A stretch of DNA of 64,000 bases, taken from Chrysoperla carnea. Its lineage: Eukaryota; Arthropoda; Insecta; Neuroptera; Chrysopidae. This document shows positions 24,364-51,411 of the stretch, piece by piece (the first letter of the stretch is position 1; each line of letters opens with the position of its first letter). Under the pieces are notes generated by a model. The model did no database searches. It worked only from the letters and a program-made list of their open reading frames with translations, and had not been told where the DNA came from. Made by a program: the position numbers and the translations under genes. The stretch covers positions 117,918,368-117,982,367 of the forward strand of contig NC_058337.1 of NCBI RefSeq assembly GCF_905475395.1, written 5' to 3'.

Positions 24364-26175
24364 TAATTCATTGAGCGTTAATGCTAAATAAGATGAACCT
24401 TTCAATTCGACCCTTTCGATCATTTTCGAGTCTATTAATCGGAATCAACACTTTTTTTTAATAATTTTTATTTAAAATTGTTATCATTTCTTTTTGTAAG
24501 AATTTGAATAGAAATTATTTATGAAGGTAAATCATTGGTTGATAAACTAACTATTTTAATTTCTATGCCATTTATAATACAGAACTGACTACGCTTGCGT
24601 TTGAATATCATAATGGCCAACATGATCAGAGTAATGATATCCTTAGTGATATATGTTAAATTAAGAATAAAATGTCAAACCGTGGATGCCAACATGCTGG
24701 CATGTATTAAGGAACAGAGGCTATGATAGAACGTTGCATTGGCGTCATAACGATGCAGTAACTTGATGTTTCTCGCGAATCATATGTTTTCTTGTGATTT
24801 TCAAAAAGTTGAGGATACAATCTTAGAAAAGTTGAAGATATCTGTCTGAAATATTTGTAGATTTTGTTTCTATCTCGGTGACATAAACGGCCGCGGCGCG
24901 GCGATCAGATCCAATTTGTTAAAAAAAACACGATTATATTCACTTAATTCGAAAAAAAAGGCAAATGATAATTGTTGGAGTGAGCTAGAATTATTCTTTA
25001 CAGGAATCACAACAATTAATGTGAAAGATGTAAAAATCAAAGCCACGGATTATATTTCGTGTTTAATACTCGAAAGTTTATCTCGTTAAGTCGCAAATTT
25101 TATTAACAAAATTTATTTCGAAGTAAAAAACTACTTTCTTTTTCGAATTAACTTTATATTTGTGGATGTTTGGCATTTTACTTATTTCATAAAAATAAAA
25201 AGAGACAAAAAATATGAGGTTCATCTTATTTGACACTCACTATAACTATTATACATCATTATTACACATGAAACAAATTTTTATATATTCATACATTTCC
25301 AATAAATAAAATGAAAAGTAAATTTCTTTTAAAAATAAATAAATAGTAATTTGTAATTACAATTACAAATATCAACACATAATTAAAAAAACACGTGGTA
25401 TATAATTAAAAATTCAATTATTAAAAAAAAATTGTAATTAATTTCTTTTAAATGTCCTATATCGATCAAATAAAGTTTGGATTATCCAAAATTAGAAAAG
25501 TTTCTCTATGCGGCTATAATTCGAACTACGGTTTTAATTTTAGTGGTAAAAGAGGCACACACAAGAGGTGAGTAATTTTACGAACTGAATCCTACACATT
25601 CACGACCTTAGCACAAAACAGAATTTTTTGATAAAATATCATAAATATATCATAAATATGAGTTGATGGCCTTACTATTCAAATCCAAAAGTGTTTTGTT
25701 TATTTGGAACAAAGTAATTTAATAAAAAACATGATAATACAGCTACATGTTATTCGATGTGCAAATAAATAATTTTTCAAAATAAAATTATTGTGTTATC
25801 GAAATTGTTTTGATGACATAAACATTTCACAGTTAGTGCTTTTGATTGTTGGCCGAATGCCCATACTACATTATAAGCATATATCGTGTATCGTCCAATA
25901 TATATGTGTATCGAAATTACCCGGTTCGTAGTCTAATCGAATTTGTTTGTTGATTATGAATAACAACAAACTGCGTCTATAAATTTAAAGTTTATTGATC
26001 TGTTTGCTAATTTTTTTTGTTTACATATAAACTTTTTCGATTTAATTTTGCAATGGTAAGAAATATCATTGGGAAGAAAAAGTATATAGTACAAAATTTA
26101 TTTGCGAAAATTGATGATTTTGTAATCATTTAAGACGATTTTATACTCCGTATTTATAAAATAAGCATCAAGGTC
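24364..26175. other. Intronic stretch, nothing recognised
   Basis: AT-rich with a slightly GC-richer patch at 24590-24920 (including CGGCCGCGGCGCGGCGATC) that I cannot assign. AAATAAGATGAACCT occurs at about 24387 and inverted at about 25217, which could mark the ends of an old transposon of about 840 bases just after the clip gene. That is weak evidence. Confidence 0.3.
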
Positions 26176-26775
26176 CCAAGTTAGGTACGCTTAAAAATAT
26201 TCATGGAAAGAAGAAAATTTTGGTATAGGTGTTCATAAAATCACCATCCATTTCCAGTTGTCCGTCCGTCATTACGATAGCTTAAAAACGAAAAGATACA
26301 TCAAGCTGATTTTTTATAGCGTAAAAAGTGAGTTTGAGTTCGTAAATGAGGAACATAGGTCAATTGGATCTTTATGTAGAATCCATCTTGTAAACCGTTA
26401 GAGATAGAACAAAAGTTTAAATGTAAAAAATTTTTCTTTACAACAAAAAAAATTAATTTTTTGTTTGAAACATTTTTTCGTAAACATAATTTTTTACCAA
26501 TGACGGCGCAAATTAGGTCAAAACTTTGGTGTCCATTTGCTCCAAAACTATTAAAGATAGCCATTTGAAAAACTACAGGAAGATTCAATTAGTGGTCTAG
26601 TGAAAATTTCTCGAAAAACAAAAAAAATTCTAGAAAATACTTTCGGAAATTTTCGAAATTTTCAAAAAGCCAAACAAATGGCGTCCAAAAGACCACCATA
26701 ATTGTGGTAGTTTTCAGCACTTTATAAACAGTATATTTCAACAATTAGCTCAATTGCTTTGTGTTTGGTTTGATT
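26176..26775 (-). repeat. Dispersed repeat family A, copy 6, inverted
   Basis: Reverse complement of the family: starts GGTCCCAAGTTAGGTACGC and TTTTGGTATAGGTGTTCATA, includes ATCTTGTAAACCGTTAGAG, and ends near ATATTTCAACAATTAGCTC. The 95-codon frame at 26301-26588 belongs to the repeat. Confidence 0.7.
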
Positions 26776-28055: not shown

Positions 28056-28067
28056 AGGACAAATATT
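28056..28067 (+). repeat. 12-base direct repeat flanking the giant palindrome, left
   Basis: AGGACAAATATT ends exactly where the left palindrome arm begins. The same 12 bases occur at 30454-30465, so the pair may be a target-site duplication. Confidence 0.6.
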
Positions 28068-28139
28068 CATTTTGTTAAAATATATCCCCTTAAGGACCCA
28101 CAATAAAAATATTTAGCTAGATTATAAAATTATTAATTA

Positions 28140-28181
28140 GCTAGACCGGTTTCGATTGCTTTGGCAATCCTCTTCAGTAGC
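28140..28181 (-). other. Hammerhead-ribozyme-like motif, left tip
   Basis: Mirror copy of 30300-30341, read on the minus strand. See that entry for the parts. Confidence 0.4.
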
Positions 28182-28725
28182 ATTAAACCTCTTAAAATTA
28201 AAAAGTCTTAAAATTAAAAAATATTTACAAATCCGAAAAAAGAACCGCATCAATCTGAAACAAATAATAATAATAAAATATTACCCTTAAAATTAAAATA
28301 AAATTATTTACCCGATTATAATAATAATAAATCTTTATGTTACACCCTCTAAAATAATGTAACTGCCTGCTTTCACCTAAAACACAATAAAATATTAAGT
28401 TTTAATCCTAAGATAGGATTATCGTTATGAAAATATCAGAAAACTAAGGGATTAAGCCTGAAAATAAAATGTAAGATAAGAAACGTTGTAAATATAAAAT
28501 AAAAAACACAGAAATAAAAATAAAGAGAAAATTAGATTACCAACAAAATAAACATTTTAATCCTCGGTATACCTAAAACAGAATAAATAATTAGAATTTA
28601 GAAAAACCTGCAACAAACCAAAATAAAATTAAATGAAAATAAGCAAATTAAAAACAAAAATTAAAAAATAAAAATAGAATTAATTAAAGAACAATAGAAT
28701 AAGTATTACCAAATGAAGTAAAATG

Positions 28726-28960
28726 GTGTACCTAAAACAGAAGAAATTATTAATTAGCGTACCTAAAACAGAAGAAATTATTAATTAGCGTACCTAAAAC
28801 AGAAGAAATTATTAATTAGTGTACCTAAAACAGAAGAAATTATTAATTAGCGTACCTAAAACAGAAGAAATTATTAATTAGTGTACCTAAAACAGAAGAA
28901 ATTATTAATTAGTGTACCTAAAACAGAAGAAATTATTAGTTAGTGTACCTAAAACAGAAT
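28726..28960 (-). repeat. 31-base tandem repeats in the left arm
   Basis: Unit starts fall at 28726, 28757, 28788, 28819, 28850, 28881, 28912 and a partial unit at 28943. The units are nearly identical (G[C/T]GTACCTAAAACAGAAG then AAATTATTAATTA). On the minus strand each unit reads TTCTTCTGTTTTAG-GTAC, a polypyrimidine tract and AG like a 3' splice site. The C/T variants occur in the same order in the mirror array. Confidence 0.9.
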
Positions 28961-29520
28961 AAAATATAAAATAAATAAAAAAAATGAAAGTGAGCAAAAT
29001 TATAAAAATACAAGAAAATAAGTTGAAAAAATAAAAAATTTTACCAAATGACAAACTGAAACAAACAAAAAATCAAATTAAGTAAAAATGATAAGCAAAA
29101 ATAAAAAATAAAAATTAAATCAAAAAATAATAATAGGAAAGATAAATAAAAAAGATGAAAAATAGCATAAAATATCGATTCTCGAGACAACACAAATGAA
29201 ACAGGTAACTAAAAGAAACCCTGCCCAAATTGTGTTTGTTTGCCCAAACAATTTGGGCAGGGTTTCTTTTAGTTACCTGTTTCATTTGTGTTGTCTCGAG
29301 AATCGATATTTTATGCTATTTTTCATCTTTTTTATTTATCTTTCCTATTATTATTTTTTGATTTAATTTTTATTTTTTATTTTTGCTTATCATTTTTACT
29401 TAATTTGATTTTTTGTTTGTTTCAGTTTGTCATTTGGTAAAATTTTTTATTTTTTCAACTTATTTTCTTGTATTTTTATAATTTTGCTCACTTTCATTTT
29501 TTTTATTTATTTTATATTTT

Positions 29521-29755
29521 ATTCTGTTTTAGGTACACTAACTAATAATTTCTTCTGTTTTAGGTACACTAATTAATAATTTCTTCTGTTTTAGGTACAC
29601 TAATTAATAATTTCTTCTGTTTTAGGTACGCTAATTAATAATTTCTTCTGTTTTAGGTACACTAATTAATAATTTCTTCTGTTTTAGGTACGCTAATTAA
29701 TAATTTCTTCTGTTTTAGGTACGCTAATTAATAATTTCTTCTGTTTTAGGTACAC
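29521..29755 (+). repeat. 31-base tandem repeats in the right arm
   Basis: Exact mirror of 28726-28960, including the single GTTAG variant near the centre side. On the plus strand each unit reads as polypyrimidine-TTTTAG-GTAC. Other acceptor-like sites outside the array in the same arm include TTTGTTGCAGG (about 29865), TGTGTTTTAGGTG (about 30095) and TTGTTTCAGATTG (about 30220). Confidence 0.9.
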
Positions 29756-30299
29756 CATTTTACTTCATTTGGTAATACTTATTCTATTGTTCTTTAATTA
29801 ATTCTATTTTTATTTTTTAATTTTTGTTTTTAATTTGCTTATTTTCATTTAATTTTATTTTGGTTTGTTGCAGGTTTTTCTAAATTCTAATTATTTATTC
29901 TGTTTTAGGTATACCGAGGATTAAAATGTTTATTTTGTTGGTAATCTAATTTTCTCTTTATTTTTATTTCTGTGTTTTTTATTTTATATTTACAACGTTT
30001 CTTATCTTACATTTTATTTTCAGGCTTAATCCCTTAGTTTTCTGATATTTTCATAACGATAATCCTATCTTAGGATTAAAACTTAATATTTTATTGTGTT
30101 TTAGGTGAAAGCAGGCAGTTACATTATTTTAGAGGGTGTAACATAAAGATTTATTATTATTATAATCGGGTAAATAATTTTATTTTAATTTTAAGGGTAA
30201 TATTTTATTATTATTATTTGTTTCAGATTGATGCGGTTCTTTTTTCGGATTTGTAAATATTTTTTAATTTTAAGACTTTTTAATTTTAAGAGGTTTAAT

Positions 30300-30341
30300 G
30301 CTACTGAAGAGGATTGCCAAAGCAATCGAAACCGGTCTAGC
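30300..30341 (+). other. Hammerhead-ribozyme-like motif, right tip
   Basis: Parts in order: GCTA (30300-30303), the core CTGAAGA (30304-30310), an extra G (30311), stem GATTGC (30312-30317), loop CAAA, stem GCAATC (30322-30327), core GAAA (30328-30331), a two-base-pair-capable A-C-CG-G-T element, C (30337) and TAGC (30338-30341) pairing with GCTA. This is the hammerhead order with the expected cleavage point after GTC. The extra G between CTGAAGA and the stem is not canonical, and stem III is minimal, so activity is uncertain. Confidence 0.45.
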
Positions 30342-30453
30342 TAATTAATAATTTTATAATCTAGCTAAATATTTTTATTGTGGGTCCTTAAGGGGATATA
30401 TTTTAACAAAATGCATAATACAGCCCACAGAAATGCTCATCTTAATTTGAATA

Positions 30454-30465
30454 AGGACAAATATT
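30454..30465 (+). repeat. 12-base direct repeat, right copy
   Basis: AGGACAAATATT, 40 bases outside the right arm. The 40 bases between (30414-30453) are not part of the palindrome. Confidence 0.6.
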
Positions 30466-32321: not shown

Positions 32322-32902
32322 CAATCTAGACGAAAAAACGGCCGGACCTGGAAAAAATTTCAATGGTGAATATGAGGTTATAGATCGTTAGGGGGGCATG
32401 TAAATAACTTTAAAAAAAATTAAGAGAATTTTTCGTTCCGCTGTTTTTGAGAAAATCCAAAAAAATGGAAAAAAAAATTTGGAATGCGTTTTTCTCGGAA
32501 TCTATTGGTTTAAGGGAAAAGTTTTTCAAATAAAAAATGTAGAGGACATTGTCGGCTACATTTTATGTCATTGAAGCAACGTCATACGAGTTAAATTACA
32601 AAAAGTAGGTGGCGCTAAAGTATCAAAAAAAGTGTTTTTCACAATTTTCATTAAGAAAAAATGATTTTTTTGTAAAAGTGAAAATGAGAAATTTTTATGA
32701 AAAACTTACCGTTTCCGAGCTATAGGCCAAAAATGCAACGCACCGTAGTTAATGGTTCTTTTGTCACTTTCGCCGGGCGAGTCGGCATAGTACGAACAAA
32801 GGACCGGTTTCTAACATCTGCCTAACTGTCTATGAATAGTACATTTTTCAGTTCCTATGTGAATTTTGGAGAGTAAGGGTCTGAAAATTTTTCTCTCCAA
32901 AA

Positions 32903-33173
32903 ATGAATATCTGTTTCGTGTGTAATACAATTGTTGAAGTGGATGAAAAAAAAAATTGTGGATTCAAAAATTCGGGAAAAATTAATAAGAGCTAGCATAA
33001 TCAGAGATGATTTAACAATCGAAAAATTACTCAAGGATGAAAGCAAAACAATCGTTCTTCACATCAAGTGCCACGAGACGTTTTTTGATATCAAGTTCAT
33101 TTTGTCAATTTTGATATCAAGTTCATTTCCTACTCTTTTATTTCATGAAAATTGCAAAATTAAAATATTATGA
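32903..33173 (+). pseudogene. Frameshifted Cys/His-motif ORF of the transposon
   Basis: From ATG 32903 the frame reads MNICFVCNTIVEVDEKK and then runs to a stop. One frame over, from about 32943, it continues KIVDSKIREKLIRASII and RDDLTIEKLLKDES, then TIVLHIKCHETF. Together these give C-x2-C … H-x3-C spacing like a zinc-binding N-terminal module that I associate with uncharacterised arthropod transposon-linked proteins (from memory, not searched). The shift falls in a run of ten A's, so it could be a real mutation or a sequencing slip. No transposase domain is visible. Confidence 0.45.
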
Positions 33174-33418
33174 AATAAAAAAATTTTGAATTGCAATATA
33201 AGTTATTGTAAACAATTTTTAACTTCTATGTTTTGTTAAATTTATGTTTACAAAAAGTTTACAATAATTGATAATACATTGGTAACGTTGTAAACTGTTT
33301 ATTTCAATATTTGTCAAAAAAAATTTACTGCAGTTGAAAGTATTTTCGAACAATCAATTCAATTTTAAATTCTACAACAATCTCAAACACAGCACGGTAT
33401 AAAATGTCCGATGTGTAC

Positions 33419-33448
33419 TCTTCAGCAAGCTGCAGTATTTCAAAAACG
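33419..33448 (+). other. Possible mini-exon inside the transposon arm
   Basis: ATGTCCGATGTG… reads MSDVYSSAS and continues a few codons into TTTCAAAAACG-GTAAGT, a strong donor, with GGTATAAAATG just before the ATG. It may be the start of a transposon-encoded or exapted transcript. Suggestive only. Confidence 0.2.
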
Positions 33449-33879
33449 GTAAGTTTTACAAAAAAATTGTTTAAATAAAAGTTGAAGCTAATTTTGAGTC
33501 AAACAACTTTCTCATTTACACTTTTACAAAAAAATCATTTTTTCTTAATGAAAATTGTGAAAAACACTTTTTTGATACTTTAGCGCCACATACTTTTTGT
33601 AATTTAACTCGTATGACGTTGCTTCAATGGCATAAAATGTAGCGGACAATGTCTTCTGCATTTTTTATTTGAAAAACTTTTCCCTTAAACCAATAGATTC
33701 CGAGAAAAACGCATTCCAAATTATTTTTTCCCATTTTTTTGGATTTTCTCAAAAACAGCGGAACGAAAAATTCTCTTATTTTTTTTAAAGTTATTTACAT
33801 GCCCCCCTAACGATCTATAACCTCAGATCCACCATTGAAATTTTTTCCAGTCAAAATGCCAGATTGATTGTACCACGAC

Positions 33880-37048: not shown

Positions 37049-38330
37049 ACAAATTTGAAAAGTATGACCCAAACTTAGTAGGATTACATACTGGGTTTGT
37101 TCAAATTGGATCAAATTTGGATTTGATAGAGGAAAATTAATTTTTTTTTATTTTAATGACGTCCATAAAGTTAAAAAATTCGGTTTTTTTTTATTACAAA
37201 GGCAAATTTGATCCGATCTTATTGAATTTTTTTTGTAACCCACTATTTTTGGGCCATTCTTTTCAGCTGTGAAGTCAGTTTTTCGCTAGCTATCATTTAG
37301 CTAGGCATAATTCCCAGATCAGGACTCCAAACTCTTGAAACCTATTACAGCTACGTCAATTTTGATCACAAATTTGAAAAGTATTAGGATTACATACTTG
37401 GTTTATCAAAATTGGATAAATATTATCGAAGATAATAAATGAGAACTCTAGGATATGTCGAAATAAATTTCGATTTTTGCCCCAATTCCTAGATGGTGCA
37501 GTCCGCCACCAAATTAGCAAAGAGTAACATTCACTAGCGAATTCTTACTGATGATGACTACTTGGTAGTCGAAAATACGTATTTTAAAAATACAAAAAAC
37601 TGATCTAGGAATTGGGGCAAAAATCGAAATTTATTAAAATTGGATAAAATTTGGATGTGATAGAGCAAAATTTAATTTTTTGGATTTCGATGACGTCATA
37701 AAGTTGAAAAATTCGATTTTTTTGATAACACAGACAAATTTGATCCGATCTTATTGGAATTTTTTTTGATGCCCACTAATTTTGGGTCATTCTTTTCAGC
37801 TATGATGTCAAATTTTCGCTAGCTATCACTTATGTGCTTAATTCCGGGACTAGGGCTTCACATTCTGGAAACCTATTACAGCTACGTCAATTTTGATCAC
37901 AAATTTGAAAAGTATGACCCAAACTTATTAGGATTACATACTTGGTTTATCAAAATTGGATAAAATATGGATGTGATAGAGCAAAATTACATTTTTTGGA
38001 TTTCGATGACGTCATAAAGTTGAAAAATTCGATTTTTTTGATAATACAGACAAATTTGATCCGTTCTTATTGGAATTTTTTTTGATACCCACTAATTTTG
38101 GGCCATTCTTTTCAGCTGTGATGTCAAATTTTCGCTAGCTATCACTTATCTGCTCAATTCTGAGATCAGGACTCCATATTCTTGAAACCTATTAGAGCTA
38201 AGTTAATTTTGATCATAAATTTGAAAAGAATGACCCAAATTTAGTAGAATTACATACTTGATTCATTAAAATAGGATAAAATTTGGATGTGATAGAGCAA
38301 AATTAAATTTTTTGGATTAAATTTTAAGGT
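37049..38330. repeat. Tandem repeat of about 315-base units
   Basis: Units begin at about 37049, 37370, 37900 and 38214, each with AAATTTGAAAAGTATGACCC or a variant. Full units contain GATGACGTCATAAAGTTG, CAAATTTGATCCG, GGGCCATTCTTTTCAGCT and TTTTCGCTAGCTATCA. Unit 2 is interrupted by the MITE at 37463-37634. The last unit is partial. Confidence 0.85.
37463..37634. mobile_element. MITE with 32-base perfect inverted ends
   Basis: ATAAATTTCGATTTTTGCCC and the next 12 bases at the left are repeated exactly in reverse complement at 37603-37634. It is 172 bases in all, inserted in a unit of the tandem array. Inside, CTGATGA (37548-37554), then T, stem GACTAC, loop TTG, stem GTAGTC and GAAA (37571-37574) again give the hammerhead-like core order with one extra base. 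Confidence 0.9.

Positions 38331-45637: not shown

Positions 45638-46257
<620 letters not shown>

Positions 46258-51318: not shown

Positions 51319-51411
<93 letters not shown>
51319..51411 (+). repeat. (AT)46 microsatellite
   Basis: Uninterrupted AT dinucleotides for 93 bases. It is preceded by a repeat fragment (51033-51310: GACCGAGCTTCGCTCGG, GTTATTCGCCAATAGATG) of the sort that often carries such tails. Confidence 0.97.

Follow-up and report, generated by a model that had tools for sequence, protein, structure and literature searches.

A perfect kilobase palindrome in Chrysoperla carnea is a Penelope-like element insertion, and its relatives suggest entry as two mirror copies

How does an insect chromosome come to carry a perfect palindrome with arms of more than a kilobase? 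The window that we analyzed (a stretch of 64,000 nucleotides of the Chrysoperla carnea genome) contains an inverted repeat whose arms, 28068-29233 and 29248-30413, are 1,166 nt each, have zero mismatches and enclose a loop of 14 nt. An earlier note on this DNA had described these arms, and its geometry was confirmed: position pairs summing to 58,481 are complementary throughout, from 28068/30413 to 29233/29248. The note had further proposed recent formation, gene conversion or an artefact as the origin, and double-stranded RNA as a possible product. A chance origin of such a repeat is excluded. We find that the palindrome is ordinary in kind, being the insertion of a Penelope-like element (PLE), and unusual in size and perfection, and that the family to which it belongs records its own insertion mechanism.

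RESULTS

The palindrome is part of a single insertion

The 31-base units that the note had seen mirrored between the arms were indeed found in both, the array at 28726-28967 being matched at 29514-29755. In the 14-nt center, five of the seven pairs are mismatched, and arm identity drops to chance level outside 28068; a second computation stretched the arms to 28064-30417. The 41 nt beyond the palindrome (30414-30454) adjoin one arm only and are common to other genomic copies, where they likewise stand on one side and are followed by unique flank. The palindrome therefore belongs to one insertion, 28068-30454, within the window. The extent of 28068 to 30413 given in the note thus holds for the palindrome but not for the unit, which continues for 41 nt to 30454 and is flanked by GGACAAATATT at 28057-28067 and again at 30455-30465. 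This target-site duplication is 11 bp long, or 12 bp with the preceding A, which the tail end also has. The parts of the insertion are as follows.

28057..28067, plus strand: left target-site duplication GGACAAATATT
28068..29236, minus strand: arm without tail, an antisense pseudo-LTR (pLTR) copy that begins exactly at the pLTR end (position 0)
28140..28181, minus strand: hammerhead-like motif of the tail-less arm, mirroring that at 30300-30341
28726..28967, minus strand: 31-nt tandem array in the pLTR of the tail-less arm, 7.8 units
29237..29247, no strand: junction filler of 11 nt, 7 nt of which are repeated in the neighboring arm
29248..30413, plus strand: tail arm, a sense pLTR copy that ends in the ATG of the PLE open reading frame (30411-30413)
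29514..29755, plus strand: 31-nt tandem array in the pLTR of the tail arm, mirror of 28726-28967
30300..30341, plus strand: hammerhead-ribozyme-like motif, with a CTGAAGA core, GAAA and GGTC^TAGC; predicted cut at 30337/30338
30414..30454, plus strand: 41-nt tail, the first 41 nt of the PLE open reading frame after the ATG
30455..30465, plus strand: right target-site duplication GGACAAATATT

The tail-less arm is mirrored as far as 29233 and template-like as far as 29236. An Rfam scan of the window gave zero matches at gathering level, and a domain scan of 10 of its open reading frames gave none above the cut-off. Rfam matches at the palindrome center (mir-725, plastid psbJ and AgvB) were rejected, all being under their gathering scores.

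The window also contains other repeats. A second inverted-repeat element at 32348-33850, with arms of about 345 nt that are 96% alike and about 0.8 kb apart, is possibly a DNA transposon. A dispersed repeat at 26173-26592 recurs as seven more pieces within the window, and further pieces of it adjoin five of the PLE copies. A 316-nt tandem repeat (2.2 copies, 90% alike) occupies 37629-38318, and simple repeats are found at 45661-45812, (GT)76, and 51319-51411, (AT)46.

The arms are pseudo-LTRs of a Penelope-like element

Long copies of the element encode an open reading frame of 869 amino acids that matches RVT_1 (3.2e-14) and, slightly under the cut-off, GIY-YIG (5.2e-4; 20.7 bits versus 22.6). 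Its best database match is LOC123300392 of C. carnea itself, with 100% identity over 83% of the query. Since an ATG stands at the arm end and this reading frame continues directly into the 41 nt of the tail, the arms are the pLTRs of a PLE, and the window palindrome is a PLE insertion from which the body is missing. The window copy is pLTR-only and lacks the reading frame; measured from the pLTR end, its two arms reach 1,169 and 1,166 nt. Tandem pLTR-ORF-pLTR units of 3,734 to 3,794 bp were found in C5_15, C2_43, L014, and L028, and inverted copies occur as well.

All complete long copies share one anatomy

With one arm as the query, the genome (559 Mb, 337 contigs) gave at least 53 matches, with 40 of 701 first-look candidates scored. 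Twenty regions representing 18 places were fetched, 16 of which held a complete insertion; together with the window copy, these are the 17 long copies. L009 and L022, whose partner arm was not within the fetched stretch, are outside the 17, and the places C6:11442180, C6:6083016, and C3:56366565 were left out of the survey. All 17 long copies are head-to-head inverted dimers with exactly one tail, and both arms of every copy start at the same base (CATTTTGTTAAAATATATCCCC). On one outer side the flank is unique, while on the other the shared 41 nt, in which a few letters vary, are followed by unique sequence. Target-site duplications of 11 to 15 bp were present in 17/17 (with a tolerance of up to 3 nt at either end), and their sequences differ between insertion sites. 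The shortest long-copy arms are about 0.6 kb (L026). At C5:15270462-15281117 the arms are nearly perfect over 5.3 kb, with one mismatch, and a 14.9-kb insertion at C2:43691728-43706591 has arms of 7.2 to 7.6 kb.

This shared anatomy bears on two other origins. An assembly fold-back artefact, as considered in the note, would suit the perfect identity and the tiny loop. It is nevertheless very unlikely, since the window copy lies between two different unique flanks with a target-site duplication and bears a one-sided tail, and since the same outer ends, single tail and site-specific duplications recur in all 17 long copies. The long inverted repeats and the 31-nt tandem array also resemble the FB elements of Drosophila. 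A foldback or terminal-inverted-repeat DNA transposon was dropped once the reverse transcriptase/GIY-YIG reading frame was found in the interior of long copies, where no transposase was seen. Furthermore, the tail at one end only makes the termini asymmetric, and the outer ends are fixed while arm length varies by copy, so that we regard the probability of a DNA transposon as negligible.

In 10 of the 17 long copies, the two arms show no difference along the entire length that they share. The remaining pairs differ by one substitution (C5_15, L015, and L019), two substitutions (L017), seven substitutions in 2,107 positions (L014), one indel (L012) or two indels (C2_43). With the long pairs so alike, gene conversion is not needed to explain the identity, though it may have contributed. 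Recent formation agrees with the data: the window arms are identical over 1,166 nt, whereas the closest of the other copies read reaches 99.5% identity over 600 nt. For each long copy, the nearest other copy is 97.7 to 99.8% identical over 600 nt, and in L014 and L019 the two arms are no more similar to each other than to the nearest other copy.

Short copies and other PLE families

A genome search with the arm end gave 710 matches with two mismatches allowed, while the reversed control gave 1. The short copies described here are loci on C1 from about 100 listed of these 710 matches, with 20 C1 regions and C2 left out. Exact duplications of 6 to 13 bp were found in 13 of the 19 measurable short copies. 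L052 is a one-sided insertion with the tail arm only. For L034, L041, L046, L047, and L049, the 1.5 kb read per side revealed no mirrored arm accompanied by a duplication; these five loci may have a single arm, have decayed or extend further. Dimers are thus the rule among long copies, though not proven for every short copy.

The abundance of related arm ends also bears on whether the palindrome is a natural hairpin-RNA gene supplying endo-siRNA, whatever its origin. Transcription across both arms could yield perfect double-stranded RNA of about 1.17 kb. The hpRNA loci of Drosophila are long inverted repeats that could fold as RNA; the lacewing palindrome is an inverted repeat too, but it is a retrotransposon insertion. 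The Rfam and ORF-domain scans, both weak tests, gave no sign of transcription or of an intron, and hundreds of arm ends (710 matches) are related to those of the window. As retrotransposition accounts for the palindrome, no hpRNA function is required, and we give this explanation little credence.

A few loci carry their PLE sequence in a larger context. L035/L036, L048, L053, and L064 are pLTR pieces inside another repeat, sharing an outer flank of about 280 nt (L048 and L064 are 99.9% alike across 821 nt), and this other repeat apparently took the PLE piece with it. L080 and L081, which lie 374 kb apart on C1, have an identical arm end and right flank and are therefore probably a segmental duplication.

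A mosquito PLE protein used as the query gave at least 66 matches in the genome (65 of 887 candidates scored). These include reading frames that share about 40% and 33% identity with the query, compared to 42% for the window family, which we take as at least two further PLE families. By coordinates alone, neighboring protein matches separated by under 10 kb form 10 head-to-head pairs (left on the minus strand, right on the plus strand), 0 tail-to-tail pairs and 10 pairs on the same strand. By its coordinates, G000 (C3:88807719-88822611), with three PLE reading frames pointing one way and then three the opposite way, is a head-to-head array of another family.

The tail-less arm is more often the longer one

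We next compared the lengths of the two arms, each half being measured against a real long copy. Among 36 measured copies, the tail-less arm was longer by more than 10 nt, a threshold picked after the data were seen, in 20 and the tail arm in 3, while neither was longer in 13 (sign test of 20 versus 3, p=0.0005). For the 17 long copies alone, the corresponding numbers were 9, 2, and 6 (p=0.065), and for the 19 measurable short copies they were 11, 1, and 7. Depending on how L026 is aligned, its tail-less arm measures 819 or 927 nt, in either case more than 631. The count excludes L009 and L022 as above, L039 (alignment), the repeat-embedded L035/L036, L048, L053, and L064, and copies with one end unresolved (L029, L030, L034, L040, L041, L046, L047, L049, L052, L055, L061, L063, L067, L073 to L076, and L078 to L081). 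Also outside it is L037/L038, in which the tail-less arm measures about 1,169 nt versus 821 nt.

The two arms of several short copies correspond to different stretches of the RNA. In L054, 22 nt of tail-less arm are joined through a 9-nt filler to the final 13 nt of the tail. In L059, the tail cDNA ends inside the tail and the opposite arm is 28 nt long, and in L082 a tail-less arm of about 1,137 nt faces a tail arm reaching 5 nt upstream of position 0. These three copies, together with L058, L062, L070, L068, L066, and L060, have a tail-less arm that extends over RNA beyond the reach of the tail arm. Because the tail-less arm holds sequence that the tail cDNA never reached, both arms must have been copied from RNA, and from two starts.

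In 11 of the 17 long copies, the stops of the two arms are no more than 60 nt apart, and they lie at places that differ between most copies. Two independent, unrelated truncations are disfavored for this reason. Some arm ends recur, at about -1,142 to -1,147 (L013, L017, L020, and by one measurement the window copy) and at -1,242 (L015 and L019), which suggests that they are real RNA 5' ends. By a hand count, about 49 arms end 20 to 250 nt from the pLTR end. Arm ends also cluster at two more places, at 116 to 118 nt, just past the hammerhead-like motif, and at 24 to 29 nt, at CCCCTTAAGG; they may be RNA ends or pauses of the reverse transcriptase.

Junctions between the arms

At the center, the arms are joined by an overlap of 1 to 11 nt or by a filler of 2 to 22 nt. 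All six fillers of at least 9 nt share 7 to 15 nt with sequence no more than 60 nt away, which was matched by 0 to 39 of 1,000 shuffles; for the 7-nt repeat of the window filler, the number was 25 of 1000. Several fillers resemble short self-copies of the arm end.

Such fillers would also be expected from snap-back self-priming, in which one cDNA from the tail end folds back, copies itself and stops at the pLTR end. This explanation, favored first because of the small loops, is in line with the near-equal arms and short loops of 13 of the 36 measured copies and with the identical arms of 10 of the 17 long pairs; in the 13 equal-arm copies, that of the window included, fold-back priming would yield a palindrome too. 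However, it predicts a longer tail arm, which was seen in 3 copies against 20 with the opposite, and it alone cannot make L054, L059, L058, L062, L070, and L082, whose tail-less arms contain sequence absent from the tail cDNA. As we read it, the window junction would moreover need at least two switches. Snap-back was dropped as the general mechanism on account of the short copies and of the excess lying mostly in the tail-less arm, and we consider it unlikely.

A hammerhead-like motif near the pLTR end

A hammerhead-like motif sits 76 nt before the pLTR end. The core CTGANGA...GAAA...GTC is present, with one extra G before stem II (as read by eye). Rfam RF02275 scored the motif at 11.7 bits, compared to a gathering score of 52, and the motif folded alone did no better than shuffles (z -0.32). 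Covariation among its seven variants was uninformative because 69 of 75 occurrences, overlapping loci being counted twice, are identical. On sequence alone, the identity of the motif as a hammerhead is only suggestive. The predicted cut coincides with the ends of seven arms at six short loci (one arm each of L029, L030, L039, L052, and L075, and both of L077); in L029, L030, L039, and L075, the alignment fell a few bases short and the end was taken from the letters. These ends hint that RNA cut at the putative hammerhead may be used in vivo.

DISCUSSION

We consider it probable that the palindrome is a 5'-truncated, pLTR-only PLE insertion made of two cDNAs, begun at two RNA starts, one per target strand, and joined head to head. 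The PLE endonuclease would cut both target strands about 12 bp apart, a spacing taken from the duplications, and both freed 3' ends would prime reverse transcription at two RNA sites 41 nt apart. To judge from the arm ends observed, one strand would prime at the tail end (+41) and the other at the pLTR end (0). Both cDNAs would then follow the same RNA molecule, that from site 0 ahead, to the RNA 5' end or to an earlier stop, and their 3' ends would be joined in the middle of the element via the microhomology or short filler visible at the junctions. This would give an inverted dimer in head-to-head orientation, which would be a perfect palindrome where both cDNAs stopped nearly together.

From the near-equal, copy-specific arm lengths and the longer tail-less arm, we infer a single RNA template for both arms. 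Sites 0 and +41 being usable at once on one molecule would explain why exactly one tail is found in 17/17 long copies. The ending of both cDNAs at nearly the same, mostly copy-specific place fits run-off at the 5' end of one RNA, and a lead of the start nearer that end fits the longer tail-less arm. The identity of the arms in 10 of the 17 pairs points to the same source but does not by itself prove one shared RNA molecule, since other copies are so alike (97.7 to 99.8%); the seven differences between the arms of L014 also speak against it.

Priming by the second target strand is also a feature of L1 twin priming, in which this strand primes on the same RNA and gives rise to an inversion with a microhomology junction. 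There, the two cDNAs cover adjacent RNA segments, whereas those of the lacewing PLE usually cover the same segment twice.

PLEs, their tails and inverted pLTRs are already known from print. Among the literature matches listed, the name of C. carnea was absent, and among titles and the beginnings of abstracts, with few subscription papers or preprints, we found no published test of the length of one arm against that of the other. Poseidon of Anolis carolinensis, of the Penelope/Poseidon clade, is like the lacewing PLE in having a reverse transcriptase and GIY-YIG reading frame, a pLTR and a tail between two reverse transcription starts, which are putative in the lacewing; its hammerhead motif corresponds to the hammerhead-like motif of the lacewing, and its cutting and extension of both target strands to those proposed here (main text of PMC11167929). 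According to that text, the purified anole protein cuts and extends both target strands, and reverse transcription begins at two adjacent internal RNA sites bounding the tail, with no strand difference; that assay therefore does not account for the strict one-tail asymmetry of the lacewing copies. Mutating the hammerhead did not impair insertion in vitro, and RNA-seq reads beginning or ending at the hammerhead cut were not detected (PMC11167929), unlike the seven lacewing arms that end at the predicted cut. The one-tail asymmetry and the longer tail-less arm are undescribed in the main text of PMC11167929.

The Penelope families of the rotifer Adineta vaga, according to PMC3846280, show the same inverted pLTRs, head-to-head palindromic junctions and duplications (there 8 to 10 bp), with a 31-bp tail on one inverted pLTR. 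Their pLTRs are about 200 bp long, compared to about 1.1 to 1.2 kb in the lacewing. The palindromes were ascribed there to self-priming, on an antisense template (PMC3846280), a reading contradicted in the lacewing by the copies with unequal arms.

More broadly, and as a tentative but serious possibility, PLEs might integrate without classical second-strand synthesis: two reverse transcriptases, begun at two sites and primed by the two opposite strands of one staggered break, would travel in convoy along one RNA, giant palindromes would be the normal product of transposition, and hammerhead-cut RNA would give rise to miniature palindromes.

With two arms that have fixed and different starts, each insertion is a record of two reverse transcriptions, and copies with unequal, non-overlapping arms tell self-priming from priming at two starts. 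The 5' ends of the arms suggest which RNAs serve as templates, perhaps including those cut by the hammerhead. Perfect kilobase palindromes in insect genomes thus need not be artefacts or hpRNA genes. Overall, the relatives of the window copy in this genome suggest that PLEs often enter chromosomes as two mirror copies made at once, one on each side of the cut.
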